63,648 nt of DNA. Source: Lampropedia hyalina DSM 16112. Lineage in GTDB: Bacteria; Pseudomonadota; Gammaproteobacteria; Burkholderiales; Burkholderiaceae_C. The notes under the pieces were generated by a model, which did not search any database, had not been told where the DNA came from, and saw nothing but the letters and a program-made list of their open reading frames with translations. Positions within the stretch are counted from its first letter, which is position 1, and every line of letters begins with the position of its first letter. This document shows, in pieces, positions 4,416-58,441 of this stretch. The position numbers were made by a program, and so were the translations under genes. The stretch is taken from the NCBI RefSeq assembly GCF_900129055.1, contig NZ_FQUZ01000018.1, positions 1-63,648 of the forward strand, read 5' to 3'.

Positions 4416-5711
4416 ATGTCCGAGCAAGAAAAATCCCAATGGCAGTTCGACACCCTGGCGGTGCATGGCGGCTACCAGCCCGACCCCACCACCAAGGCCG
4501 TGGCCGTGCCGATTTACCAGACGACTTCGTTTGCCTTCGACAACGCCCAGCACGGGGCCGACCTGTTCGATCTGAAGGTGGAAGGCAACATCTACAGCCG
4601 CGTGACCAACCCGACCAACACGGTACTGGAAGAGCGCATTGCCGCGCTGGAAGGCGGCATCGGCGCACTTGCGCTGGCGTCCGGGCAGGCGGCCGTCACC
4701 TATTCGCTGCTGACGATTGCCGAGGCAGGCGACAACATCGTTTCTGCTTCCACGCTCTACGGTGGCACCTACAATCTGTTTGCCCATACGCTGCCGCAGA
4801 TCGGCATCGAAGTGCGCTTTGCCGATACCCGCCAGCCAGAGAGTTTCGAGGGGTTGTTCGATGCCCGCACCAAGGCGGTATATGTGGAATCCATCGGCAA
4901 TCCGCTGGGCAACGTCACCGACATTGCCGCGATTGCCGACATCGCCCACCGCCACGGTGTGCCGCTGATCGTCGATAACACCGTCGCCACCCCCTACCTG
5001 CTGCGCCCCTTCGAGCATGGCGCAGACATCGTGGTGCACTCGCTCACCAAGTACCTGGGTGGCCACGGCACCACGCTGGGCGGCGCGATTGTCGATTCCG
5101 GGAAATTCCCCTGGGCCGAGCACAAGGAACGTTTCAAACGCCTGAACGAACCTGAGGTGAGCTACCACGGCGTGGTCTTCACCGAAGCACTGGGAGCCGC
5201 CGCCTACATTGGCCGCGCCCGCACCGTGCCACTGCGCAACACCGGCGCGGCACTGTCGCCCTTCAATGCCTTTTTGATTCTGCAAGGCATCGAAACCCTG
5301 AGCCTGCGCATGGAGCGCATCAACGCCAACAGCCTGGCCGTGGCGCAGTTCCTGCAACAGCACGACAAGGTGGAGTGGGTCAGCTACGCGGCCCTGCCCG
5401 ATCACCCCGACCATGCCCTGGCACAGAAGTACCTGGGCGGCCATGCGTCTGGCATTCTCACCTTCGGAGTCAAGGGGGGCCGTGCCGGAGGCGAACGCTT
5501 CCTCGACGCACTGCAACTGTTCACCCGACTGGTCAATATCGGTGATGCCAAGTCGCTGGCCACCCACCCCGCTTCCACCACCCACCGCCAGCTCTCGCCC
5601 GCAGAACTGGAAAAGGCCGGGGTCAAGGAAGAAACCGTGCGCCTGTCCATCGGCATCGAGCACATCGACGACCTCATCGCCGATCTGCAACAGGCACTGG
5701 CTGCCGCCTGA
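4416..5711 (+). CDS. metY: O-acetylhomoserine sulfhydrylase, copy 1
   Basis: 431 residues, full length for the Cys/Met-metabolism PLP family (MetY type). It uses O-acetylhomoserine and sulfide, or another thiol, to make homocysteine in the cytoplasm. The start ATG follows CAGGAG with good spacing. [15 protein letters not shown] at the N-terminus and SRVTNPTN are family signatures. The PLP lysine is K212 in [11 protein letters not shown]. The C-terminal [15 protein letters not shown] and [12 protein letters not shown] are also conserved. A second gene at 29933 encodes a close paralog, with an identical 280-nt internal tract (5064-5343). metQ follows directly, linking the gene to methionine supply. 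Confidence 0.93.
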
Positions 5712-5750
5712 CCCCCATCCACCATGAGTTTGCCCTCCAGGAGTCCACCC

Positions 5751-6578
5751 ATGCCCCACCATCCCATTCGCACCCTCTCCCGTACTCTTGCCAGCCTGCT
5801 GCTGGGCACAGGCATGCTGCTGGCAGCCGTGCCTGCCAGTGCCTCGGAACCGCTGGTGATTGCCGCCGATGCCCTGCCCCATGCGCAAATTCTGCAACAG
5901 GCCAGCAAGATCGACCCCAGCCTGAAACTCAAGATCGTCGAGTTCCCGAATGGCGTCAATCCCAATGAACTGCTGGCCGGCGGTGATGTGCAGGCCAACT
6001 ACTTCCAGCATGTGCCCTACCTGCGCCTTCAGGAACAGGCCCTGAAGCAAACCTTCGCCGTCGCAGCCACCGTTCACATTGAGCCGCTGGGCATCTATTC
6101 CCAAAAACACCAGAGCCTGAAGGATATTCCCAGCGGCGGCATCGTCAGCCTGCCCAACAACGCCAGCAACCTCAGCCGCGCCCTGTTCCTGCTTCAAGAC
6201 AATGGCCTGATTCGCCTCAAGCCGGAGTTCAGCGACCCGGCCACGCATCTGGCCAAGCCTGCCGACATCATCGAGAACCCCAGGAACCTGACGATCAAGG
6301 AAGTCGATTCGGCCCTGCTGCCACGCACCCTGCCCGATGTGGCCCTGGCCATCATCAACGGCAACTACGCGCTGGAGGCAGGTCTCAAGCCCGCCAAGGA
6401 TGCGCTGGCACTGGAGAAAGTGGCCAACAACCCGTATGCGAACGTGCTGGTGACCACCCCGCAACTGCTCAACGATGCCCGCATCCAGCAACTGACCAAG
6501 GTGCTGGAGTCGGCAGAGCTGGCCCGCTTCATTCAGAACCAGTACGAGGGTTCTGTCATTGCGGTGAATCCGCACTGA
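5751..6578 (+). CDS. metQ: MetQ/NlpA-family methionine-binding protein
   Basis: 275 residues. I chose ATG 5751 because AGGAG lies seven bases upstream; an in-frame ATG at 5724 has no clear Shine-Dalgarno. A cleavable signal peptide (LASLLLGTGMLLAAVPASAS) is followed by the mature NlpA fold, with NPNELLAGGDVQANYFQHVPYL and GIVSLPNNASNLSRAL characteristic of MetQ. It binds D- or L-methionine in the periplasm for the MetNI ABC transporter. There is no lipobox cysteine, so it is predicted to be soluble and not lipid-anchored. metN and metI are not next to it. It follows metY by 39 bases and is probably cotranscribed. Confidence 0.9.
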   Translation: MPHHPIRTLSRTLASLLLGTGMLLAAVPASASEPLVIAADALPHAQILQQASKIDPSLKLKIVEFPNGVNPNELLAGGDVQANYFQHVPYLRLQEQALKQTFAVAATVHIEPLGIYSQKHQSLKDIPSGGIVSLPNNASNLSRALFLLQDNGLIRLKPEFSDPATHLAKPADIIENPRNLTIKEVDSALLPRTLPDVALAIINGNYALEAGLKPAKDALALEKVANNPYANVLVTTPQLLNDARIQQLTKVLESAELARFIQNQYEGSVIAVNPH

Positions 6579-6659
6579 CCTTCGCTGTCGTTTTCGCAAA
6601 GGCGATAGAAGGGCCAAAGGCGCAACAGCACCGCCATGGTGCCGGGCTTGTTTTCATGC

Positions 6660-6692
6660 TCTGCCCGGTGCCTTCTGCCGGGCAGATACAAT
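6660..6692 (+). promoter_or_regulatory. hairpin and -10-like box upstream of bamD
   Basis: TCTGCCCGG and CCGGGCAGA (6660-6686) form a 9-bp stem, followed at once by TACAAT (6687-6692) 60 bases before bamD. The -10-like box has no good -35 at normal spacing. The hairpin lacks a T run, so it is not a standard terminator for metQ. Confidence 0.3.
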
Positions 6693-6751
6693 GGGCAGGC
6701 TTCGGACATGCCAGATGCCCGCCTTCTTCGTTTTCCCCAAGCCCAACGACT

Positions 6752-7573
6752 ATGCGCATTGCCTCTTCCCTCCGCCTTTTCCCTGCCTTCCGCCTCGGTG
6801 CCGTGGCGACTGTGGCCATTTTGCTGACCGCCTGCGCCACCCAGAACGAAGACCCGACGGCCACCTGGAACCCTGACAAAATCTACACCGAAGCCCAGGG
6901 GCAGATGAACAGCAGCGGCTACGACAAGGCCATTGAACTGCTGGAAAAACTCGAAGGCCGCGCCGCCGGAACCCCGCTGGCCCAGCAGGCACAGATCGAC
7001 AAGGCCTATGCCCAGTACCGCAACGGTGACCGCGCCCAGGCCATTGCCACGCTCGACCGCTTCCTGATGCTGCACCCCACCAGCCCGGCCGCCGATTACG
7101 CGCTGTACTTGCAGGGCCTCATCAACTTCAACGATGACCTGGGCATGTTCAGCTGGCTGACCAAGCGCGACCTGTCCGAGCGCGACCAGCGCGCCGCCAA
7201 GGATTCCTTCGAGTCCTTCAAGGCTCTGGTGGAACGCTTCCCCAACTCCAAGTACGCGCCCGATGCCCACCAGCGCATGCTGTACATCGTCAATGCGCTG
7301 GCCGCCTACGAAGTCCATGTGGCCAGCTACTACTACTCGCGCGGAGCGTATGTGGCCGCCATCAACCGTGCCCAGCAGGCTTTGCAGGACTACAAGGATT
7401 CGCCCGCGCTGGTCGAGGCCCTGCACATTCTGGAACGCTCCTACGACGCGCTGGGCATGACCGATCTGCGCGACGATACCCGCCGCGTCATCCGCTCCAC
7501 CCTGCCCCCAGCACCCAACGCCACCACGGATGCCGCCCCGAAACGCTCCTGGTGGAAGCTCTGGGGCGAATAA
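6752..7573 (+). CDS. bamD: outer membrane protein assembly factor BamD
   Basis: 273 residues. A lipoprotein signal peptide ends in the lipobox LLTAC with Cys28 as the lipidation site, and no earlier in-frame start gives a better signal peptide. The mature part consists of TPR-like repeats, such as QIDKAYAQYRNGDRAQAIAT and the conserved GLINF and DQRAAKDSFESFKALVERFP segments of the BamD/ComL family. BamD is the essential lipoprotein of the BAM complex that folds beta-barrel proteins into the outer membrane. The gene faces rsgA with an 18-base gap. Confidence 0.95.
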   Translation: MRIASSLRLFPAFRLGAVATVAILLTACATQNEDPTATWNPDKIYTEAQGQMNSSGYDKAIELLEKLEGRAAGTPLAQQAQIDKAYAQYRNGDRAQAIATLDRFLMLHPTSPAADYALYLQGLINFNDDLGMFSWLTKRDLSERDQRAAKDSFESFKALVERFPNSKYAPDAHQRMLYIVNALAAYEVHVASYYYSRGAYVAAINRAQQALQDYKDSPALVEALHILERSYDALGMTDLRDDTRRVIRSTLPPAPNATTDAAPKRSWWKLWGE

Positions 7574-46116: not shown

Positions 46117-48282
46117 TCACCGGGGTGCGTCCCCTGCTTCCTGCTGCACCCGGTTGCGCTGCTGCTGGAGATACAGCCAGTCCACAATATCACCGCTGGC
46201 ACGGTAGCCCGATACCGTCGCCTGCAAAATCTGGCGCATGCGGGGATAGTCCTTCGCCTGTACCGCCAACAGCAGTTGTTCCAGCACCGCCTTGAACTCA
46301 TCCCATGGCACGAACTCCTCGTTCGCCCGCATGATCTTGCTGTGTTCGGTGGCCGTCACATTCTCGCCAATCAGCAGTTCCTCGTATAGTTTTTCACCTG
46401 GGCGCAAACCGGTAAATTCAATTTCGATATCGCCCTTCGGATTCTCGGCAGAGCACACCGTCAAACCCGACAGCCGGATGATCTTCTGCGCCAGCTCGGC
46501 AATCTTCACCGGCTCGCCCATGTCCAGCACAAACACATCCCCACCCTGCCCCAGCGAACCCGCCTGAATCACCAGTTGCGCCGCCTCGGGAATCGTCATG
46601 AAAAACCGCGTGATGTTTGGATGCGTCACGGTCACCGGCCCACCCTGTGCAATCTGCTGGCGAAACAGTGGAATCACCGAGCCGGAAGACCCCAGCACAT
46701 TGCCAAAGCGCACCATCGTGAAACGGGTGCGGTTGGGCACGGGCGTCTTGGGCAATGGAAACACAATCACCGATGAAGGCAGCACCGCCTCGGCATCAAA
46801 CAGCACCGGCATGGTTTCCTGACTCAAAGCCTGCAACACCATCTCCGCCAAACGTTTAGTTCCACCCATCACATTGGTCGGGCGCACCGCCTTGTCCGTC
46901 GAAATCAGCACAAAATTGGACACGCCACCTTGAATCGCAGCCTGTGCCGTATACAGCGTACCCATCACATTGTTGAGCACGCCCTCCACCATATTGTGCT
47001 CCACCATCGGCACATGCTTGTAAGCGGCTGCGTGGTACACGGTATCCACGTTCCAGGCCCGCATCACTGCCAGCAAGCGTCTGGGGTTGCGGATAGAACT
47101 CAGAATCGGCACCAGCGTCACCGCCAGGCCCTGACGGTGAATGCGCTGCTCCAGCTCCATCTGAATGCTGTAGAGGTTGTACTCGCTGTGCTCGAACAGA
47201 ATCAAGGTGGTGGCCCCACTGCCCACAATCTGGCGGCACAGCTCCGAGCCAATCGAACCGCCCGCTCCGGTCACCAGCACCACCTGATCCTTGATGCAGC
47301 GTGCAAACAAATCCTCACGGGGCGGCACCGCGTCGCGCCCCAGCAAATCGGCAATGTCCACCGCCTGAATATCACTCACCTTCAGATGGCCATTGGCCAG
47401 ATCGAGAATGGCAGGAATACTGCGCACCTGCACCGGAAACTGCTGCAACTGCTCCAGCACCTCCTTGCGCCGTGTGCGCGATGCAGAAGGAATCGCCAGC
47501 AACACCTCCTGCGCGGCAGTTTCCTTCAACATGCACGCCACCTGATCGGCTGCGTAAATGGGCAAACCCGCCACCACCTGACCTTCGAGGGTTGGGTCGT
47601 CATCCACGAACGCCACCGGCTGCATGGCGCGGCCTGTGCGCAACGCCGCCACCAACTGGTTACCCGCCGCCCCGGCTCCCCACACCGCCACCCGTGTACT
47701 GTATTGTTCCCGGGCAACCGCTGGCCCGTGTGCACCTGCTGCAACGGCAGGCTGCTCCCGCTCTGAATGCCAGTGTCGCAAGCCTCGCTCCAGATCGCCC
47801 ACAAAAAACGCCCGCATCAGCACCCGCAAGCCACCCACCAGCAGCAATGAAAAACACCAGTAATTCAAAATAGCCGACCGGGGAATGGCACGCGGTGCTG
47901 CCGTACCCAGAAGCCACAGCAGAAACACCAGCCCTAGTGTCGCCAGCGTCACGGCCTTCAACACCTGCGCCTGTGCATGAATGCCAAAAAACCGCAGCAC
48001 GGCACGATACAAGCCGAGCCGCACAAAAACCGGAATCGCCACCACTGGGGCCAGCAAAAAACCCAGCCGGTAATCCCAGAGCCGGAACCCCATGCCGGCA
48101 TCCAGCCCCAGCCGCACCAGCAAAGCCAACCACAAGGCAATCCAGAGCAGCCACACATCCACCAGTACCTGAAGCAAACGCTTCTGCCCCCTGGACAAAG
48201 CCAGCATCCGCTGGCGCACCCGCGCCAGTACCGCCAGCACGGAATTCTTGGCCACCCCCATTCGCGTACCGCCCACCTTCAT
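46117..48282 (-). CDS. WbpM/PglF-type UDP-GlcNAc 4,6-dehydratase (FlaA1/CapD family)
   Basis: 721 residues. ATG 48282 overlaps the aminotransferase stop (ATGA). Four N-terminal membrane helices (about 30-150) are followed by a CoA-binding-like Rossmann domain with RVAVWGAGAAGNQLVAALRT. The catalytic SDR domain has LVTGAGGSIGSELCRQI and the active-site STDKAVRPTNVMGGTKR, with methionine and lysine in place of the usual tyrosine. It makes UDP-4-keto-6-deoxy-GlcNAc at the membrane. The adjacent aminotransferase and acetyltransferase suggest a bacillosamine-like product. It is the last gene of the locus. Confidence 0.9.
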   Translation of the reverse strand: MKVGGTRMGVAKNSVLAVLARVRQRMLALSRGQKRLLQVLVDVWLLWIALWLALLVRLGLDAGMGFRLWDYRLGFLLAPVVAIPVFVRLGLYRAVLRFFGIHAQAQVLKAVTLATLGLVFLLWLLGTAAPRAIPRSAILNYWCFSLLLVGGLRVLMRAFFVGDLERGLRHWHSEREQPAVAAGAHGPAVAREQYSTRVAVWGAGAAGNQLVAALRTGRAMQPVAFVDDDPTLEGQVVAGLPIYAADQVACMLKETAAQEVLLAIPSASRTRRKEVLEQLQQFPVQVRSIPAILDLANGHLKVSDIQAVDIADLLGRDAVPPREDLFARCIKDQVVLVTGAGGSIGSELCRQIVGSGATTLILFEHSEYNLYSIQMELEQRIHRQGLAVTLVPILSSIRNPRRLLAVMRAWNVDTVYHAAAYKHVPMVEHNMVEGVLNNVMGTLYTAQAAIQGGVSNFVLISTDKAVRPTNVMGGTKRLAEMVLQALSQETMPVLFDAEAVLPSSVIVFPLPKTPVPNRTRFTMVRFGNVLGSSGSVIPLFRQQIAQGGPVTVTHPNITRFFMTIPEAAQLVIQAGSLGQGGDVFVLDMGEPVKIAELAQKIIRLSGLTVCSAENPKGDIEIEFTGLRPGEKLYEELLIGENVTATEHSKIMRANEEFVPWDEFKAVLEQLLLAVQAKDYPRMRQILQATVSGYRASGDIVDWLYLQQQRNRVQQEAGDAPR

Positions 48283-49469
48283 TCCACCACCGAAGCCTGA
48301 GCCAACACCGTATCCAGTGCGGCCACTGTTGCATCCATCTCGGCTTCGGTCAAAGTTGGATGCACCAACAGCATCACACTGGTCTGCCCCAGTTCCTGTG
48401 CCACCGGTAAACGCTGCGCAGGCCGCCACCCCGTGCCATCGAAGGCCTTCTCCAGATACACCTCGGAGCAAGACCCCTGATATGCCGCAACGCCGCGCTC
48501 CATCAACGCATCCACAATCCGGTCACGGCTCCAGCCCACCGCCAATTTTTCAGGGCGCACATAGAAATAAGCCTTGTACTGTGCATGAGCCGTCTGCCCA
48601 TCATGCGTGTCCAGCAAAGGCACGCGTGCAACCGCATGGCGCGCTGCCGTGCGTGCAATGGCCGCTGCATTCCTGGTACGCAATTGCGTCCACTGCGCCA
48701 TGCGCTTGAGCTGAATGCGGCCAATCACCGCCTGCACCTCCATCATGCGCCAATTCGTACCGAAGCCCTCGATGACCCAGCGAAAGCCTGGCGGGTGCTG
48801 GCGTTCGTACACCGCCTCATAGCTCTTGCCATGATCCTTGTAAGCCCACATGCAAGCCCACAAATCGCGGTCATTGGTCGTCACCATGCCCCCTTCGCCC
48901 CCCGTGGTCATGATCTTGTCCTGGCAAAAACTCCAGGCCCCCACATCCCCCAATGTCCCGACGCTGCGCCCCTTGTAGCGCGCTCCATGCGCCTGGGCAC
49001 AGTCCTCGATCACCTTGAGGCCATGCTGCCGTGCCAGCTCCAGAATCGGATCCATATCGGCAGGCCATCCCGCCAGATGCACCACGATGATTGCCTTCGT
49101 GCGTGGTGTCAATACCCTGGCAATCGTCTGTGCCGACAGATTGCCACTGTCTGACTCCACGTCTGCAAATACCGGAACGGCTCCCGCATTCACCACACAG
49201 GACACACTCGCCATGAATGTGCGTGGTGTCACCACCACCTCGTCACCAGGCCCAATGCCCAGGGCATGCAAAGCCACATCCAGTGCCAGGGTTCCATTGC
49301 CCACTGCCACGGCATGGGCTGCCCCCGTCCAGTCAGCAAACTCCTTCTCGAACATCCGGCACTCGGAGCCTGTCCAGTAGTTCACCCGATTCGAGAGAAT
49401 CACATCCCGCACCGCATCGGCCTCTTCCTGTGTGAACGAAGGCCAGGGAGAAAAAGAAGTATTCAACAT
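48279..49469 (-). CDS. DegT/DnrJ/EryC1-family sugar aminotransferase (PglE-like)
   Basis: 396 residues. The PLP lysine lies in WSFCQDKIMTTGGEGGMVTT, and VAVGNGTLALDVALHALGIG and VIEDCAQAHGARYKG are family signatures. It transfers an amino group to a 4-keto-6-deoxy sugar nucleotide. With the dehydratase it would make UDP-4-amino-4,6-dideoxy-GlcNAc. The 176 bases upstream are AT-rich and contain the MaoC terminator and a possible promoter. Confidence 0.9.
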   Translation of the reverse strand: MLNTSFSPWPSFTQEEADAVRDVILSNRVNYWTGSECRMFEKEFADWTGAAHAVAVGNGTLALDVALHALGIGPGDEVVVTPRTFMASVSCVVNAGAVPVFADVESDSGNLSAQTIARVLTPRTKAIIVVHLAGWPADMDPILELARQHGLKVIEDCAQAHGARYKGRSVGTLGDVGAWSFCQDKIMTTGGEGGMVTTNDRDLWACMWAYKDHGKSYEAVYERQHPPGFRWVIEGFGTNWRMMEVQAVIGRIQLKRMAQWTQLRTRNAAAIARTAARHAVARVPLLDTHDGQTAHAQYKAYFYVRPEKLAVGWSRDRIVDALMERGVAAYQGSCSEVYLEKAFDGTGWRPAQRLPVAQELGQTSVMLLVHPTLTEAEMDATVAALDTVLAQASVVE

Positions 49470-49517
49470 ATCAACTCAACAATGCAATCCAGATGTTTCT
49501 AATCAACACAAGATAAA

Positions 49518-49548
49518 ACTATACGTTACGATGAAGACAGAGTGGTAA
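49518..49548 (-). promoter_or_regulatory. possible promoter for the aminotransferase-dehydratase pair
   Basis: On the minus strand TTACCA (49548-49543) and TATAGT (49523-49518) are 19 bases apart, about 50 bases upstream of the aminotransferase. Spacing and -35 are weak, but a strong terminator lies just before, so some new promoter is expected here. Confidence 0.3.
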
Positions 49549-49583
49549 TTTTACTGATACAAGACAGTCAAGCCATTGAGATG

Positions 49584-49620
49584 GCTCAAAAAAACATCCT
49601 CCCGTGGGGGAGGATGTGTT
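49584..49620 (-). terminator. intrinsic terminator after the MaoC gene
   Basis: ACATCCTCCC (49594-49603), loop GTG and GGGGAGGATGT (49607-49617) form a strong stem. On the minus strand it is followed by seven T's. It would stop the transcript of the upper part of the polysaccharide locus. Confidence 0.85.
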
Positions 49621-49645
49621 CATGGCATATTGTGTGGTTCTGGGA

Positions 49646-50092
49646 TCACACCACTTCAGGAATGTAAAGCTCGGCTTCCCCTGTAACCACGGCACGATCG
49701 TTCACCGTCCCCACGGTCTCGAACAGCACGCGGCGACGCTCCATGTCCACCGACACCACCTTCACGGTAGCCACCACCGTATCGCCAATGTACACAGGCC
49801 GCTTGAACTTCACGCTCTGGGAGATATAGATACAGCCCGGCCCAGGCAACTCCATGCCAAACAACGCCGAGAAAAACCCTGCGGACAGAATACCGTGCGC
49901 AATACGCTTGCCAAACTGCGTCGATGCCGCATACTCATCGCTCAAATGCACAGGATTGCGATCACCCGTCACCGCAGCAAACGCCTGAATATCCGCATCG
50001 GTAATCAACTGCGAACGGCTCACCGACATCCCTGGCTTGATCTCCTCGATCGGCACTCCACGGGGAACTTCCAACACAACAGCATCACTCAT
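49646..50092 (-). CDS. MaoC-family (R)-specific enoyl-CoA hydratase
   Basis: 148 residues of the hot-dog fold. The hydratase motif is AFAAVTGDRNPVHLSDEYAA, with catalytic Asp and His, followed by GKRIAHGILSAGFFSALFG. It would hydrate trans-2-enoyl-CoA to (R)-3-hydroxyacyl-CoA. It sits between the sugar acyltransferase and the sugar aminotransferase, so it may supply a 3-hydroxyacyl group for sugar N-acylation; this is inference. A role in fatty-acid or polyhydroxyalkanoate metabolism is the alternative. Confidence 0.88.
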   Translation of the reverse strand: MSDAVVLEVPRGVPIEEIKPGMSVSRSQLITDADIQAFAAVTGDRNPVHLSDEYAASTQFGKRIAHGILSAGFFSALFGMELPGPGCIYISQSVKFKRPVYIGDTVVATVKVVSVDMERRRVLFETVGTVNDRAVVTGEAELYIPEVV

Positions 50093-50282
50093 TTCAACGT
50101 CTCCTTTGGAACAATTAATCCGCGCAGATGGGAAATAGTGTGTGCAAGCCCAAACCTGAGACTCTCACACCTCACGCCCTCCGCTGCATTCAAGTATATG
50201 CCGGATACACCCCCTTATACGGTAGCCCGCTGCTGTTTGCCCCAATCCAGGGCATCACCTTGAGGGATATTCCTCCTCCATC

Positions 50283-50948
50283 TCACGCCACGGTGGTGCC
50301 CATCACCCTGGCCGGGTTGCCCACCACCGTAGTACCTGGCTCCACACTCCGAGTCACCACCGCACCCATGCCCACCACCGCGCCCCGTCCAATCACCAGC
50401 GGCTTGCCCGGCTGCCCCTGCTTGATAACTGCTCCGGTGCCAATGTAAGCATGATCCTCAATCACCACATTGCCATTGCACTTCACTCCCGGCGCAAAGG
50501 TCACGAAATCACCCACCACGCAGTCATGCGCCACATAGCTGTACAAATTTGCATGAAAATGCCTGCCGATGCGGATATTGGAAGTCAGCGTCACAAACGG
50601 ACTGATCGCGGCCCCTTCTCCTATCGTCACCCCATCCATGACCACTGCATTGCCTGCCTGCACCGTCCATGGCGTGATGCCATCCGCCTGCAAACGTCCG
50701 GCCAGCCTCTCCCGCACCGCACTGTTGGCAATCGCAATCACTGCATGGTGTTCAATCGCGGGAATTTTCAGAAAATCCGCATAACTCAGCACCCGCTGCC
50801 CATTCACCTGTTCTGAATCAGGATGGTCGTCTATAAAAAAAAGACGCTCACTGGCAATACCTTGTGCTTCCAGTTGCCATCTGGCCAACGGCATAACTTC
50901 ACGCCCATAGCCACTGGCCCCATAAACCGCAAAAACCGTTTGGTGCAT
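50283..50948 (-). CDS. PglD/NeuD-family sugar O/N-acyltransferase
   Basis: 221 residues. An N-terminal Rossmann-like part (VFAVYGASGYGREVMPLA) binds the sugar nucleotide. A left-handed parallel beta-helix with hexapeptide repeats follows (AVVMDGVTIGEGAAISPFVT to KPLVIGRGAVVGMGAVVTRS). The catalytic histidine is probably in SYVAHDCVVGDFV. PglD acetylates the 4-amino group of UDP-4-amino-GlcNAc using acetyl-CoA. It lies 14 bases after the sugar transferase. The acyl group used here is not known. Confidence 0.88.
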   Translation of the reverse strand: MHQTVFAVYGASGYGREVMPLARWQLEAQGIASERLFFIDDHPDSEQVNGQRVLSYADFLKIPAIEHHAVIAIANSAVRERLAGRLQADGITPWTVQAGNAVVMDGVTIGEGAAISPFVTLTSNIRIGRHFHANLYSYVAHDCVVGDFVTFAPGVKCNGNVVIEDHAYIGTGAVIKQGQPGKPLVIGRGAVVGMGAVVTRSVEPGTTVVGNPARVMGTTVA

Positions 50949-50962
50949 GATGAATCTTGCCT

Positions 50963-51601
50963 TTAATTCGATGGAATGTCTGTTGAACTTGGGTGCAGTA
51001 AATTCGTATTTGGACTTCCTGTGAACTTCGGCATCGTGGCTTCGCCCTGGGCACTGATGCCATCACGTACCAGCACCTTCTTCACAGTGAGAAAAATGAT
51101 CTTCACATCGAGCCAGAAGGAACGGTGATCCACATACCAAACATCGAATGCAAACTTCTGCTCCCACGAAATCGCATTGCGCCCATTCACCTGCGCCCAA
51201 CCCGTCACCCCAGGCCGCACCTCATGCCGCCGTGCCTGCTCAGGCGAATACAGCGGCAAATATTCCACCAGCAACGGACGAGGCCCCACCAGGCTCATCT
51301 CCCCCTTCAGCACATTCCATAACTCTGGCAACTCATCCAGACTGCTGGAACGCAGAAACTGACCAAAAGGCGTGAGCCGCTCGGCATCGGGCAACGGCTG
51401 CCCATCCGGCCCTATCGCATCCCTCATCGTGCGAAACTTGACCATCCGAAACGGCGTGCCATGCAAACCGGGCCGCACCTGCTGAAACAGCACAGGCGAG
51501 CCCATCGTGCGACGCACCTTCCATGCCACCAGCAGCAGCACGGGAGAAAGCAACAGCAGCCCCGCCGCCGCCGCCACAAAATCAAAACAACGTTTCAGCA
51601 T
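50963..51601 (-). CDS. PglC/WcaJ-type undecaprenyl-phosphate phosphoglycosyltransferase
   Basis: 212 residues. MLKRCFDFVAAAAGLLLLSP is the re-entrant membrane helix of monotopic phosphoglycosyltransferases. KFRTMRDA and SLDELPELWNVLKGEMSLVG (then PRP) carry the Asp-Glu active site and the RPL-type motif. It transfers a phospho-sugar to undecaprenyl phosphate, the first step of repeat-unit assembly. The short form without extra N-terminal helices is PglC-like. A longer start at 51628 is less likely. Confidence 0.92.
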   Translation of the reverse strand: MLKRCFDFVAAAAGLLLLSPVLLLVAWKVRRTMGSPVLFQQVRPGLHGTPFRMVKFRTMRDAIGPDGQPLPDAERLTPFGQFLRSSSLDELPELWNVLKGEMSLVGPRPLLVEYLPLYSPEQARRHEVRPGVTGWAQVNGRNAISWEQKFAFDVWYVDHRSFWLDVKIIFLTVKKVLVRDGISAQGEATMPKFTGSPNTNLLHPSSTDIPSN

Positions 51602-51674
51602 TGCATGGTTCTCTCTGTACACGGCCACGCCACATAGTTCATTTAACAGGCCCTTTCATATTTTGAAAGGCTTA

Positions 51675-52797
51675 CTACTCAATTCCCATTTCCTTCAACA
51701 TCACCGCGTTCACCTTGTGTACATCGTATTTTTCTTCGGCAATCGCGCGTGAGCGTGCGCCCATGCGTTCGATCAGTTCTGGCTTCTCGATGAACTTCAG
51801 CATGGCGGCAGCCAGCGGCTCCACCGACTTGACCGGAACCAGAAAGCCATTGTCGCCATCCACCACTGTCTCGCGGCAGCCTGGCGCATCCGTGGTGATC
51901 ACGGGGCGGCCCATCGCCATGGCCTCCAGAATGGTTCGGGGAGTTCCTTCCGGGTAGAAAGAAGGCAGTACAAAAACCGAGCATGCACCTAGTGCGTTTC
52001 TTACATCATCAAGGCGTCCAAAGTATTTAATTGTTCCTGATTCAATCCATTCATCCAGTTCCTCTTTGGTTATTGCACCAGGATTCTCATCAATCCAGCC
52101 AACGAGGCTGAATGTCACCTCTGGTCGAGACCTTTTTATTAGGTTTGCAGCCTCTACGTACAAGCGGACTCCTTTTGATCCAAGCAACCTGGCAATGAGC
52201 AAAAAATTGATTTTTTCAGGAAATGGTACTGGGGTGTATTGGTCAATCCTGACCCCTGATCCGTTAACAACAATCGAAGGATTTTTTTTCAGAAATTATC
52301 CGGTACTTCTTGAGTAATATTTCATCATCTGGATTTTGTAGAAAAATTTTGCTCGACAAAGAAATAGAAATTTTGTAAAGAATCCTTACTAATGAATTCA
52401 AAAAATCTGAAGCACCTTCCGAGAAAGCATGCCCCAATCCTGATATCAATGAAAATCTGGCAGGAACCCCTGCAAGTCTGGCTGCGATCATGCCATAAAT
52501 CACAGGTTTTACTGTGTACGCGAAGACTATGTCTGGCTGCTCTTTTTTAATCAATCTGTATAAATGATAAAAACTGACAATATCCCTGATTGGATTCATT
52601 CCCGTTCTCTCCATCGGAAAATCAAATCCTTTAATGTTATTTTCGATCATGAAATTCACTATCAAATTATCTTCTTTTATTTTTGGTGCAGATAAACAAA
52701 TTTCATGGCCTTTTTTTGCGACTGCCATGATCAAATCTCCGCGAAAGCGCAACAAAGATTCTGCATATCCGGAAATCATTAAAAACTTCATTTTCAC
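51675..52797 (-). pseudogene. GT4-family glycosyltransferase, split by a frameshift
   Basis: Two frames make one gene. The N-terminal part (52797/52791-52264) begins MKFLMISGYAESLLRFRGDL with a GT-B donor-entry fold; the C-terminal part (to 51675) has FLLIARLLGSKGVRLYVEAA, VFVLPSFYPEGTPRTILEAM and PVITTDAPGCRET, the GT4 nucleotide-sugar site. They are separated at an eight-T run (52282-52289 on the plus strand). Removing one base there restores a continuous frame through ENPSIVVNGSGVRIDQYTP-like sequence. This could be a true loss, slipped-strand phase variation or a sequencing error. The gene is AT-rich, and it overlaps the end of galE. Confidence 0.85.
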
Positions 52798-53843: not shown

Positions 53844-54973
53844 CACAATTTCCCATCACGCCACAGCGTGTTATAACTCTCGAGCATTCTTGAAAGACTG
53901 AAATTCTCCTCTACGCGCTGCCTTGCCGCAGTACGGCGCAGTTGCCAGCCTTCCGCGTCATCCATTGCCCGCCTTGCTTGCAAGAGTGCATGGGCCAGTG
54001 CTGTGGCATCCTTGGGAGGAACAACCCAGCCGGTATCGCCCACAATCACTGCGGCATCGCCTACATCCGTTGTCACCACCGGGGTGCCACAAGCCATGGC
54101 TTCTGCCAATACGTTGGGGAAGGCCTCACTGCAACTTGAAAGCACATGTACGTCCAGCGCATTCATGACATCGGGAACATCTGTACGTTGCCCCAGCAGA
54201 CGAACTTCATCGACCAAGTTCAAATCAATCATCCATTTTTTTAATTGGTCGTTGCTCGAATCCATCCCTCGCCCTACCAGTACGGCAAAAAACTCAATGC
54301 CTTGCTTTTTTATCTCTGCAAGCGCATGCAATAAATTGCCATGATCTTTTAACGGGTCAAAACGGCCGACCATTCCCAACAGCCACTGGTTTTCCGAAAT
54401 CCCCCATTGTTCTCGCAAATGCCTGCGCGTTTGGAAATTCCAGGAAAAACGACTCAAATCATAACCGTTGGGAATGGCATACATCTTCTCCTCCGCATAC
54501 CCCAAAGCCTGATGCACCTCCACTGATTTTTGCGCACAACACACAATCGCCGTTGGCACCAAACGGCTGATGCGCGCACAAACTTTGGCGACAAAAATGG
54601 TTGAACGCTTGGTGCTTTCAGGGGCCAGCGTTGTATGGTGAATACCCCAGAATATCTTTTTTACTCCAGCCAAACAGGCCACTACTCCGCCAATCAAATT
54701 GGCATGGTACATCCATGTTTGCACAACTGCCGGACGCTCTTTGTGCAACAATCGCCAAAGTTTCCATAGTCCAAGCAGCGTTACCTTGCCTTGCGGCATA
54801 TTCAAGCAGGTGACTTGCACGCCAGCATTGCGCAATAACGGGCCATACTTTCCATTATTCATCATGGAGACAATATGATGAACATTTTCACGGTCGCTCG
54901 TAACCAAGCGATAGAGAACCGCTTCGGCTCCGCCATCGTTGAGGCCTGTGATGATATGAATAACTTTTTTCAT
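53843..54973 (-). CDS. GT4-family glycosyltransferase
   Basis: 376 residues from ATG 54973 ([20 protein letters not shown]), which overlaps the stop of the polymerase gene (ATGA). The N-terminal GT4 loop [14 protein letters not shown] is followed by [30 protein letters not shown] and the EX7E region [20 protein letters not shown]. It adds one sugar of the repeat unit on the cytoplasmic face. Donor and acceptor cannot be read from sequence. Confidence 0.92.
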
Positions 54974-56304
54974 CTTAATGAATTTTTTACAATCGAAGAT
55001 CCTTTGCTTAAAGCAAAAATAATAATTAAGCAAACCAAGACTGAGAAGTTTGATGCGATGACGTGCGATGGGTGGGCATAAAATACTGCAAGGAAAGCAA
55101 GCCTAATTGAAAAGTAGGCCAGGAGCATAATTCCAAACACTCCACCTATTCCCTCACACATGGATTGGATGAATCTTATCAGTATACCGAACATTACGCC
55201 AACTATTGGAATTCCTGCAATGCTGAATTGCATAATTCCAAGCGTGATTAAATCGACTGGGATACTTCCAGTAACACCATAATTTCCTTTTTTTGCACCA
55301 GAAATAACCAATGTGTTTATCTCTGAAATATCATCGAACCAATTTTGCGTCCAAGATGAAGGAAGTAGATGTAGCGGTGAATATATAAAGTCAATAAAAC
55401 CCCTGTATAGAAATTCATCTCTCTGAAATTGCGCAAAAAATCCAACAAATGGAAATGATATTTCTCTCGCAATAAAAAACGCGAAGCTATTTGCTCCTTT
55501 TAATTCTAGATAGTTACTGACTAGGTAGATGATATAAATTGCAAAAATAGAACCAAATAATGCAATCGATATGATTACGGGCGAGGAAATTTTTTTATTG
55601 AGGAGGTAGAAAATAAAAAATGTCGCCAGAAAAAAAACAAATCCAATGCGACCAAGCCAAGAATATAAGACATAAAGGGAAAACAGAAATGCCAGAAAGA
55701 ACCCTAAGATAGTTAACCTTCTTTTCCATCCGCGATGCTGCGCATCATGCCATGCCGAAAAGAAAAGATAGGATGAGATGAGACTCAATCCTCCAAACGG
55801 CTGCAAGAAACTCCAGCTATTATTTATTTCAAAAATTCCTGATCTAATTGTTGCCGAATATTCAAGATAATCAATCCAGCCGCCATATGCTTGAACATAG
55901 AGGTATCTTAAAAAAATCCCTATTATCAAGATAATCCACGCATAAAAAGATAATTTTTTAGAACTTAAGGAAAAATTAATAAAAAAATACTTTTTTATAT
56001 GATTCGAATATTTTCCAGCAACTTGCCATCCAAGAATTATTCCTGCCATCATAATAAATACCGCTACGCTATGAAGAATTAAATAATTTCTGCTATAAAT
56101 TATCCAATTTTCACCTTCAATCCCTTCTGATCCAGAGAAAATTGAGTCGATAACTAGTGACCATCCCATTCCATATATGATGGCGATCGCAGAGAAAGTC
56201 CATGAAATCATTGGAGGGTAAGTGCACCCAGTGGCATATCGTCGCGCAAAAAATGCTGCAACAAAAAAAACAATTACCCCAGAGATTATTGAAATATCAA
56301 CCAT
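54970..56304 (-). CDS. wzy: Wzy-like O-antigen/capsule polymerase
   Basis: 444 residues with about ten to twelve hydrophobic helices and a large periplasmic loop near residues 260-350. The sequence is strongly AT-rich, as is common for polymerases of surface polysaccharides. There is little primary-sequence conservation, so the call rests on topology, position next to glycosyltransferases and a flippase, and the WSWLGRIGF-like helical pattern of this family. It would join repeat units on the periplasmic side. Confidence 0.75.
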   Translation of the reverse strand: MVDISIISGVIVFFVAAFFARRYATGCTYPPMISWTFSAIAIIYGMGWSLVIDSIFSGSEGIEGENWIIYSRNYLILHSVAVFIMMAGIILGWQVAGKYSNHIKKYFFINFSLSSKKLSFYAWIILIIGIFLRYLYVQAYGGWIDYLEYSATIRSGIFEINNSWSFLQPFGGLSLISSYLFFSAWHDAQHRGWKRRLTILGFFLAFLFSLYVLYSWLGRIGFVFFLATFFIFYLLNKKISSPVIISIALFGSIFAIYIIYLVSNYLELKGANSFAFFIAREISFPFVGFFAQFQRDEFLYRGFIDFIYSPLHLLPSSWTQNWFDDISEINTLVISGAKKGNYGVTGSIPVDLITLGIMQFSIAGIPIVGVMFGILIRFIQSMCEGIGGVFGIMLLAYFSIRLAFLAVFYAHPSHVIASNFSVLVCLIIIFALSKGSSIVKNSLR

Positions 56305-57424: not shown

Positions 57425-58441
57425 TTATGACTGACCCAATATGTCTTGAATCATGAAGTCTTCTCCTCTGAAATAACCGCCATGCCATTTCAGGGAAGAA
57501 TCCCAGTATCCTTTGCAAGGTAGATAACCTAGAGATGCAAAAGCATAACTCATTTCTACAATCAATGGTTTATTGTCCAGAAAAATAAAATCCAAAGCGA
57601 CTGACTGCGATTTCATTTTTTTTGACACATCGAAAGCCAAAGAAATACATGATTCAGGTATTGAATCTGGATTATAGTCAATTTTCCCACTGCCGGATGC
57701 TCTGAAATCACTTTCCCTGACCATTCTTTTTATTCCGAAGGCTCGTGCGCCAATGATGATGACCCGAATATCGGAATCATTGCCAGGGATAAATTCCTGA
57801 AAGTAGGCATAATTTTTCTCTATCGGAAGCCGTTTGAGAGTTTCATTTCTTTTGAAGGCTCTGAATATTCCACGCGAGATATTAAAAAAAGATTTTGTGG
57901 TTTTGTCGCGCTTGAACTGCCACCATCGCTCCCCCAAAGCAGCCCAGCGCGAGACTGGTGGAAATCCTTTACCAAAGGCTTGTTCTATGAATTTTTCGGC
58001 ATTTTTGTAATTCTTTGCCAGCCTTACGTTGGTGCTGCCTGCGCCACTGCGCAGTTTGAAAACCTTGGGATATGCCGTATTGGCAGCCCATGCCAAGGCT
58101 TCATTTTTATCCAGAAAGACATGGCTTGGAACATGGGGAATGTTCAACGCCTCCATCAGATATTTTTGGGAAACCTTGTCGTCAAAATGCCAACATGTTT
58201 CCGTGTTCGGAAAAACAGCAATTCCCATGCTTTCTATGGACTTGATGATTCCGCGCGCCACGAGCATGTCTTCCGCATAAGTCTGGCTCCAATTCCATAG
58301 AAGAATGGAGCAGCCGCTCAGTTGTTCAATGATGTTGGATTGATGGCAATTGACAATTTTGAATGGGACTCTTTTTTCCGTGCAATACTCTATCCAGCGG
58401 TCGCTGAAGCTGCCTTTTCTTTCGTGAATGGCTAAAATCAT
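57425..58441 (-). CDS. ATP-grasp family protein of the polysaccharide locus
   Basis: 338 residues. The N-terminal part (ILAIHERKGSFSDRWIEYCT) is a pre-ATP-grasp fold. KVFKLRSGAGSTNVRLAKNY is the ATP-binding beta-strand and loop, YFQEFIPGNDSDIRVIIIGA the central part, and SVALDFIFLDNKPLIVEMSY has the metal-binding acidic residues. ATP-grasp enzymes join a carboxylate to an amine or similar group. In this locus it could attach an amino acid or amine to a uronic acid. Substrates are unknown, and the gene is AT-rich. Confidence 0.75.
   Translation of the reverse strand: MILAIHERKGSFSDRWIEYCTEKRVPFKIVNCHQSNIIEQLSGCSILLWNWSQTYAEDMLVARGIIKSIESMGIAVFPNTETCWHFDDKVSQKYLMEALNIPHVPSHVFLDKNEALAWAANTAYPKVFKLRSGAGSTNVRLAKNYKNAEKFIEQAFGKGFPPVSRWAALGERWWQFKRDKTTKSFFNISRGIFRAFKRNETLKRLPIEKNYAYFQEFIPGNDSDIRVIIIGARAFGIKRMVRESDFRASGSGKIDYNPDSIPESCISLAFDVSKKMKSQSVALDFIFLDNKPLIVEMSYAFASLGYLPCKGYWDSSLKWHGGYFRGEDFMIQDILGQS

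Follow-up and report, generated by a model that had tools for sequence, protein, structure and literature searches.

A hydratase gene within a bacillosamine-type gene block

Lampropedia hyalina DSM 16112 carries, in a 63,648-nucleotide stretch of contig NZ_FQUZ01000018.1 (the window), a polysaccharide locus containing a block of genes that resemble those for uridine diphosphate (UDP)-bacillosamine synthesis, together with a gene for a MaoC-type hydratase. The original prediction, made from the letters of this stretch, held that PglF-, PglE-, PglD- and PglC-type genes form one block and that the hydratase gene lies between the PglD- and PglE-type genes. Pfam and NCBIfam assignments bear out the first statement, with all four gene types of the UDP-bacillosamine pathway present in one block, and the minus-strand order, PglC-PglD-MaoC-PglE-PglF, bears out the second.

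Read along the minus strand, the block begins with a PglC-type phosphoglycosyl transferase (50963-51628, ATG probably at 51601; Pfam Bac_transf, 1.9e-64), which is separated by only 14 bases from a nucleotide-sugar N-acyltransferase of the PglD/WeeI type (50283-50948). This PglD scores 177.9 bits against the NCBIfam NeuD_NnaD model (NeuD/PglB/VioB; cut-off 160.8) and has a PglD N-terminal domain (PglD_N, 1e-7), a hexapeptide-repeat domain and a histidine, His141, at the position of the family's catalytic residue. Its Protein Data Bank (PDB) matches include 4m9c (1.4e-84), presumably WeeI of Acinetobacter baumannii, and 7l7z (1.2e-78), and it bears Y14, E17 and A140, a combination to which we return below. 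A spacer of 190 bases (50093-50282, minus strand) leads from its stop to the start of the hydratase gene (49646-50092, minus strand), and directly after the latter is a terminator-like hairpin of 10 pairs with a T-run (49594-49617, minus strand; hairpin scan, suggestive). The block ends with a PglE-type UDP-4-keto-sugar aminotransferase (48279-49469; Pfam DegT/DnrJ, 1.2e-94; best PDB match 7l7x, 2.3e-172) and an overlapping gene for a PglF/WbpM-type UDP-N-acetylglucosamine (UDP-GlcNAc) 4,6-dehydratase with a long N-terminal part (46117-48282, probable ATG at 48282; Polysacc_synt_2, 5.2e-122, and CoA_binding_3), both on the minus strand. We take 7l7x and 7l7z to be Psychrobacter enzymes of diacetylbacillosamine synthesis.

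The hydratase reading frame is intact and contains the R-hydratase motif D-x-N-P-x-H. Matches to the MaoC_dehydratas family (3.9e-23) and to PhaJ-type hydratases in the PDB (5cpg, 1e-30; 1iq6, 4.7e-25) identify the product as a predicted PhaJ-like (R)-specific 2-enoyl-coenzyme A (CoA) hydratase.

MaoC genes adjoin sugar N-acyltransferase genes in other genomes

The survey of MaoC-PglD pairs in other genomes that was proposed with the original prediction found that the pairing recurs. MaoC relatives adjoin a sugar N-acyltransferase gene in at least nine other loci, and the partner is of the PglD type in at least seven of these (L065, L066, L093, L109, L129, L144 and L191), of the LpxD type in L189 and of the QdtC type in L190. 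The MaoC start, as chosen, overlaps or abuts the acyltransferase stop by 1-17 bases in 9/9 of these pairs, and the full gene order of the window is repeated in L066 and L191. Recurrence of the association in other genomes indicates more than chance.

These loci were found through searches at several taxonomic levels. Among 399 genomes of the order, 87 matched the window MaoC at 1e-20 (own genome included), and the best two others, G074 and G004, encode a PglD relative (58 and 61%) touching MaoC; a search of the same genomes with the window PglD gave nine matches at 1e-50, own included, and two of the eight others were again G074 and G004. At class level (369 genomes), 37 matched MaoC at 1e-30, own included, and the best three others (G976, G889 and G734) are all sugar-linked, with a score gap to the rest of 222.7 versus 178.3 bits. 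Their MaoC genes lie behind an LpxD-like gene (L189), a PglD gene (L191) and a QdtC-like gene near a DegT-type aminotransferase (L190). The corresponding PglD search yielded four genomes at 1e-50, own included, one of the three others being the MaoC-linked G889. At family level, 100 of 299 genomes matched MaoC, own included, and the 29 non-own loci fetched from them show no MaoC-acyltransferase pair. Across the order, family and class searches, 5 of the 87 non-own MaoC loci fetched (flanks up to 1.5 kb) have a touching sugar acyltransferase (L065, L066, L189, L190 and L191), and the other 82 have none by the probes used; three of the latter (L022, L023 and L028) show a weak hexapeptide match some 0.7-1 kb from MaoC. 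Finally, a contig scan with PglD covered 80 loci out of at least 531 relatives; some of these loci are cut, so that a gene not seen there may still exist. At least four of the 80 have MaoC immediately behind PglD: Pseudogulbenkiania subflava, a Sulfurimonas metagenome-assembled genome (MAG), Malaciobacter halophilus and a Methyloprofundus MAG.

A different arrangement was seen in L009/L067, where the start of a MaoC gene of 56% identity and a divergently oriented, sugar-phosphate transferase-like gene are some 250 bases apart (L067:7271-9350); no acyltransferase was seen at this locus.

Sugar-linked hydratases form a distinct cluster

When 93 MaoC sequences were placed in one tree, a single branch set the 10 sugar-linked ones, including that of the window, apart from all others; this branch has an ultrafast bootstrap value of 88 and a Shimodaira-Hasegawa-like approximate likelihood ratio of 69 and was found in 88% of 200 bootstrap trees. 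The tree is built on few columns (134) and its support is moderate, and four of the linked sequences were recruited by searching with PglD. Linkage maps onto it as one change, compared with 9.7 in shuffles, and 0/500 shuffles were as low.

The catalytic residues D44, N46 and H49 are kept in 10/10 sugar-linked MaoCs, which also have F74, F78, C87, Y101 and F124 in common. Among the 83 other MaoCs, F74 occurs in 2 and F78 in 10, and C87, Y101 and F124 are each found in 7-14%. F78 aligns near a residue that we take to be Leu65 of PhaJ, which limits acyl length. A bulky residue at this position would favor a short acyl chain, and F74 and F78 together are consistent with a short acyl pocket in the sugar-linked enzymes.

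Within the cluster, the MaoCs of L129 (6657-7094) and L189 (6452-6874) are nearly identical, with end branches of 0.023 and 0.03. L129 is Malaciobacter halophilus, which we place in the Campylobacterota, and its MaoC gene lies behind PglD; L189 comes from a genome of the window's class, and there the gene lies behind an LpxD-like acyltransferase. The near-identity of these hydratases, set beside their differing partners, suggests that MaoC moves as a separate part and that a transfer between these lineages was recent.

A dehydrogenase can occupy the position of the hydratase

At least three of the 80 contig-scan loci encode a 3-hydroxyacyl-CoA dehydrogenase (PF02737, PF00725) directly after PglD: L080 (a Dechloromonas aromatica MAG), L118 (Pseudomonas paralactis) and L121 (P. 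fluorescens). The L080 gene lies between PglD and PglE, exactly the slot that MaoC fills in the window. For L118, the only one of the three scanned against NCBIfam, the best match is 3-hydroxybutyryl-CoA dehydrogenase, below the cut-off (376 versus 408 bits). Enzymes of this family make the (S) form of their product. No PhaB-like reductase was found within 2.5 kb of PglD in 92 loci, some of which have short or cut flanks.

L118 has a further peculiarity, in that a QdtC-like acyltransferase, a PglD relative and the dehydrogenase follow in a row (4892-7533), opposite to a PglC/PglE/PglF block of 61-73% identity.

Two subtypes of PglD differ at three residues

We compared 93 PglD sequences: 82 from L065-L147 without L067, which has no PglD, 10 from the genome searches and that of the window, with second views, a second G009 copy (L188) and a 34% match in G1052 (L206) left out of the count. 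The residue before the catalytic histidine (position 140) is glutamate in 34/93 and alanine, glycine or serine in 59/93. This division is mirrored at two further sites: every one of the 34 acidic rows carries C or A at position 14 and G, S or A at position 17, and in all 56 non-acidic rows that are ungapped at these sites, position 14 is F, Y or H and position 17 is E (three further rows are gapped). Positions 14 and 17 presumably lie in the N-terminal nucleotide-sugar-binding part of the protein, a placement that would count for a difference in acceptor. In PDB alignments, an acidic residue precedes the catalytic histidine in PglD (E), the PglB-type 4m98 (D), PerB (D) and 7l7z (E), and the 3-hydroxyacyl enzymes LpxD (A; three chains) and LpxA (A or G; four chains), among the matches listed, are non-acidic, as is the LpxD-like partner in L189 (S).

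PglDs linked to a supply gene are non-acidic at position 140 in 11/11 cases (eight with MaoC, window included, and three with the dehydrogenase), compared with 48/82 unlinked ones (Fisher p 0.0046, not phylogeny-corrected). In a phylogeny-corrected test, from which 4/93 rows under 190 residues were left out, the number of independent pairs relating supply gene to residue 140 was one on supported branches and five on all branches, too few for significance to be within reach. The association of supply genes with this residue is thus not independent of descent.

The window PglD departs from its own kin in this respect. Its six nearest rows among the matches listed (Comamonas, Variovorax and L179; 70-73%) are all of the acidic type, and a tree places it among them (quick method, weak support). 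It nonetheless has Y14, E17 and A140, differing from all six at all three positions; the acidic residue before the catalytic histidine, the mark that we ourselves propose for PglD acetyltransferases, is absent. It is unlike all six at 38 positions, mostly N-terminal; the stretch 116-178 contains just two of these, 140 and 145.

An origin of this signature by recombination is disfavored. With the three positions removed, the nearest sequences were acidic-type rows in 4/4 stretches tested, which points to coordinated substitution.

In L129, two tandem PglD-type acyltransferases precede MaoC (5291-6657), one close to Campylobacter PglD and one of the non-acidic type, an arrangement that could possibly place two acyl groups on one sugar or serve two sugars.

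A proposed route to a hydroxyacylated bacillosamine

From the observed gene content, intact active-site motifs, recurrent pairing, MaoC cluster and residue code, we infer the identity of the acyl donor, its stereochemistry and the control of donor choice by the signature residues. We think it reasonably probable that MaoC makes (R)-3-hydroxybutyryl-CoA and that the PglD-like enzyme uses it on N4 of UDP-bacillosamine. Judged by family, PglF would dehydrate UDP-GlcNAc, PglE would aminate C4, the PglD-like enzyme would acylate the 4-amino group and PglC would transfer the sugar phosphate; as a whole, the block would make a UDP-activated N-acylated bacillosamine and then put the sugar on undecaprenyl phosphate. 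MaoC would contribute the (R)-3-hydroxyacyl thioester by adding water to a short 2-enoyl thioester, for which crotonyl-CoA is the likeliest candidate. The PglD-like enzyme, having changed to the non-acidic subtype, would prefer this donor over acetyl-CoA. The predicted product is 2-acetamido-4-[(R)-3-hydroxybutanoyl]amino-2,4,6-trideoxyglucose.

A number of observations weigh against this route. The window is the exception among the pairs, with 190 bases between PglD and MaoC and a further 176 after MaoC, and the hairpin (49617-49594) stands between MaoC and PglE. These loose junctions imply that MaoC may be a separate cistron, although the region holds six such hairpin sites compared with a mean of 7.7 in shuffles, making the hairpin itself only suggestive. 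With one PhaB above the cut-off and two PhaC genes, the host genome should have a source of (R)-3-hydroxybutyryl-CoA that does not depend on MaoC. As to the residue code, the 48 non-acidic PglDs with no supply gene seen, some with short or cut flanks, mean that this subtype does not require such a gene beside it, the independent pairs are too few to bring the association to significance, and the acidic pattern of the acetyltransferases was read from PglD, 4m98, PerB and 7l7z in a family that also includes the acetyltransferase VioB (7txp). Moreover, the closest PDB enzyme to the window PglD, 4m9c, is itself non-acidic (F14, E17, A140). If 4m9c is WeeI, it reportedly uses acetyl-CoA in vitro, and the non-acidic type would then at least not be exclusive for hydroxyacyl donors. 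Lastly, the 4-N-hydroxybutyryl group of bacillosamine is (S) where a configuration is given (PMC3210612, PMC9676051; papers with PMC numbers are cited here and below for the parts of their text available), whereas MaoC should give (R).

MaoC might feed the acyltransferase with some other hydroxyacyl group (longer, branched or dihydroxy, C5-C6), or on an acyl carrier protein (ACP) instead of CoA, which we regard as unlikely but deserving of consideration. Bacillosamine with a 3,5-dihydroxyhexanoyl group and a Shewanella 4-amino-4,6-dideoxyglucose with 3-hydroxy-3-methylbutyryl are known (PMC3210612), and the hydroxybutyryl supply genes for viosamine in Pseudomonas syringae (vioS, vioR and acp) are of the ACP type (PMC3927599). 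The bulky F74 and F78 of the sugar-linked MaoCs nevertheless favor a short chain, and the L118 dehydrogenase, though below the cut-off, best matches an enzyme for the 3-hydroxybutyryl thioester of CoA.

We consider it rather improbable that the window MaoC is a passenger, that is, a horizontally acquired PhaJ-like gene in its own transcription unit beside a PglD that acetylates. The gap before MaoC, the hairpin after it and the presence of PhaB and PhaC elsewhere in the genome would fit such a history. At 1e-15, this MaoC is found in none of the nine other genomes of the genus (10 with our own), and a close match to the window PglD is likewise confined to the own genome, one other having a 34% relative. 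This near-absence of both genes indicates that the module was probably acquired horizontally. Further, in the nearest PglD relatives listed (Comamonas and Variovorax, 72-75% by tblastn), PglE comes immediately behind PglD and MaoC is missing. Set against this, each of the nine other members of the MaoC cluster adjoins a sugar acyltransferase gene, and the window PglD departs from its kin by a switch at three subtype residues.

That the switch at these three residues marks a change of acceptor sugar or of catalytic geometry, and not of acyl donor, is very unlikely: 32/59 non-acidic PglDs lie outside a PglC+PglE operon as far as seen, compared with 6/34 acidic ones, but the remaining 27/59 share the PglC+PglE context of 28/34 acidic PglDs, so that the acceptor is probably often the same for both subtypes and the donor the likelier difference, and Acinetobacter qhbA and qhbC, each with the same qhbB/gdr, give acetyl or (S)-3-hydroxybutanoyl products (PMC9676051).

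Supply of (R)-3-hydroxybutyryl-CoA by MaoC is our preferred reading. The suggestion in the original prediction that the hydratase provides PglD with a 3-hydroxyacyl donor gains from the pairing, the MaoC cluster, the replacement by a dehydrogenase and the residue switch; its corollary, that a dedicated hydratase explains the acyl supply, is favored by the pairing and weakened by PhaB and PhaC as another possible source in the host. More tentatively, we entertain as a serious but less probable possibility a broader reading in which four parts hold jointly. The three-residue PglD signature would tell acetyl from 3-hydroxyacyl donors; the neighboring gene would set the configuration, (R) with the sugar-specialized MaoC and (S) with the 3-hydroxyacyl-CoA dehydrogenase; MaoC would be a mobile part combined with three kinds of sugar N-acyltransferase; and an acetyl-type PglD lineage would have been converted upon gain of MaoC, giving (R)-3-hydroxybutyryl bacillosamine in the window.

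The surrounding polysaccharide locus

Beyond the block, the locus encodes a Wzx-type flippase, glycosyltransferases, a GalE-type epimerase, a second epimerase dependent on nicotinamide adenine dinucleotide, a UDP-sugar dehydrogenase and an ATP-grasp protein. The gene at 54970-56304 is a Wzy candidate by position and look only, Pfam having given no family. The ATP-grasp protein (57425-58441, minus strand; weak RimK match) lies inside the locus and might attach an amino acid to a sugar. Between PglC and GalE, a family-4 glycosyltransferase gene is split into two pieces (51675-52202 and 52264-52797, minus strand), which were searched apart. The split, at a tract of eight A (about 52281-52288, minus strand), could reflect phase variation or an indel introduced in sequencing or assembly.

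Relation to known systems

The window MaoC belongs to the same family as PhaJ, has its active-site motif and finds its best PDB matches there (5cpg and 1iq6), but the sugar-linked MaoCs differ from PhaJ in forming their own cluster, in their distinct conserved residues and in their site behind sugar acyltransferases. Another hydratase with a supposed role in hydroxyacyl supply, that of the amino-sugar operon for anthrose linked to deoxythymidine diphosphate (dTDP), is of the crotonase type.

In the open-licence PMC literature, we did not find anthrose together with an enoyl-CoA hydratase, MaoC together with bacillosamine, or the combination of enoyl-CoA hydratase, 3-hydroxybutyryl, O-antigen, aminotransferase and acyltransferase. 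Among the papers listed from the same literature, no title or opening of an abstract tells of a hydratase in an amino-sugar cluster. Neither a MaoC enzyme dedicated to N-acylation of sugars nor the three-residue PglD code was found there, no search having been aimed at the residues themselves.

That 3-hydroxybutyryl amino sugars occur in bacterial glycans, as the original prediction stated, is well documented. (S)-3-Hydroxybutyryl bacillosamine is described from Pseudoalteromonas and Plesiomonas (PMC3210612) and from the Acinetobacter qhbCB/gdr module (PMC9676051), and (R)-3-hydroxybutanoyl groups are found on 3-amino-3,6-dideoxygalactose, 3-amino-3,6-dideoxyglucose and pseudaminic and legionaminic acids (PMC3726653, PMC4869667, PMC9676051). 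The Acinetobacter qhbC/qhbB/gdr system for UDP-D-QuiNAc4NHb has the same three-step pathway as the window and a hydroxybutyryl-transferring acyltransferase acting on bacillosamine (PMC9676051, PMC3628348). The qhb module differs in its (S)-3-hydroxybutanoyl acyl group and in that the available parts of these papers name no hydratase for it (PMC9676051, PMC3628348). The P. syringae viosamine island (vioA, vioB, vioS, vioR and acp) resembles the window in placing proposed hydroxybutyryl-donor genes beside an aminotransferase and an N-acyltransferase; its supply genes encode a ketoacyl-ACP synthase, a reductase and an ACP in place of a MaoC-type hydratase, and its sugar is dTDP-viosamine instead of UDP-bacillosamine (PMC3927599). 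Hence 3-hydroxybutyryl bacillosamine, N-acylation with hydroxybutyryl groups and an amino-sugar island with its own supply genes are already in print (PMC3927599), and the step originally put forward as new is so only in part: the hydratase route was not found in the literature searched, and the sugar and the supply-gene principle are known.

The N-acyl groups of surface amino sugars help define serotypes and phage receptors and are hard to read from genomes. If a neighboring gene and a residue signature do predict the acyl group and its configuration, the structures of K- and O-antigens could be better predicted, and natural acyltransferases could be picked for glycan synthesis. The MaoC-PglD module would then represent a second solution, beside that of the viosamine island, for bringing a fatty-acid-type intermediate to sugar assembly.

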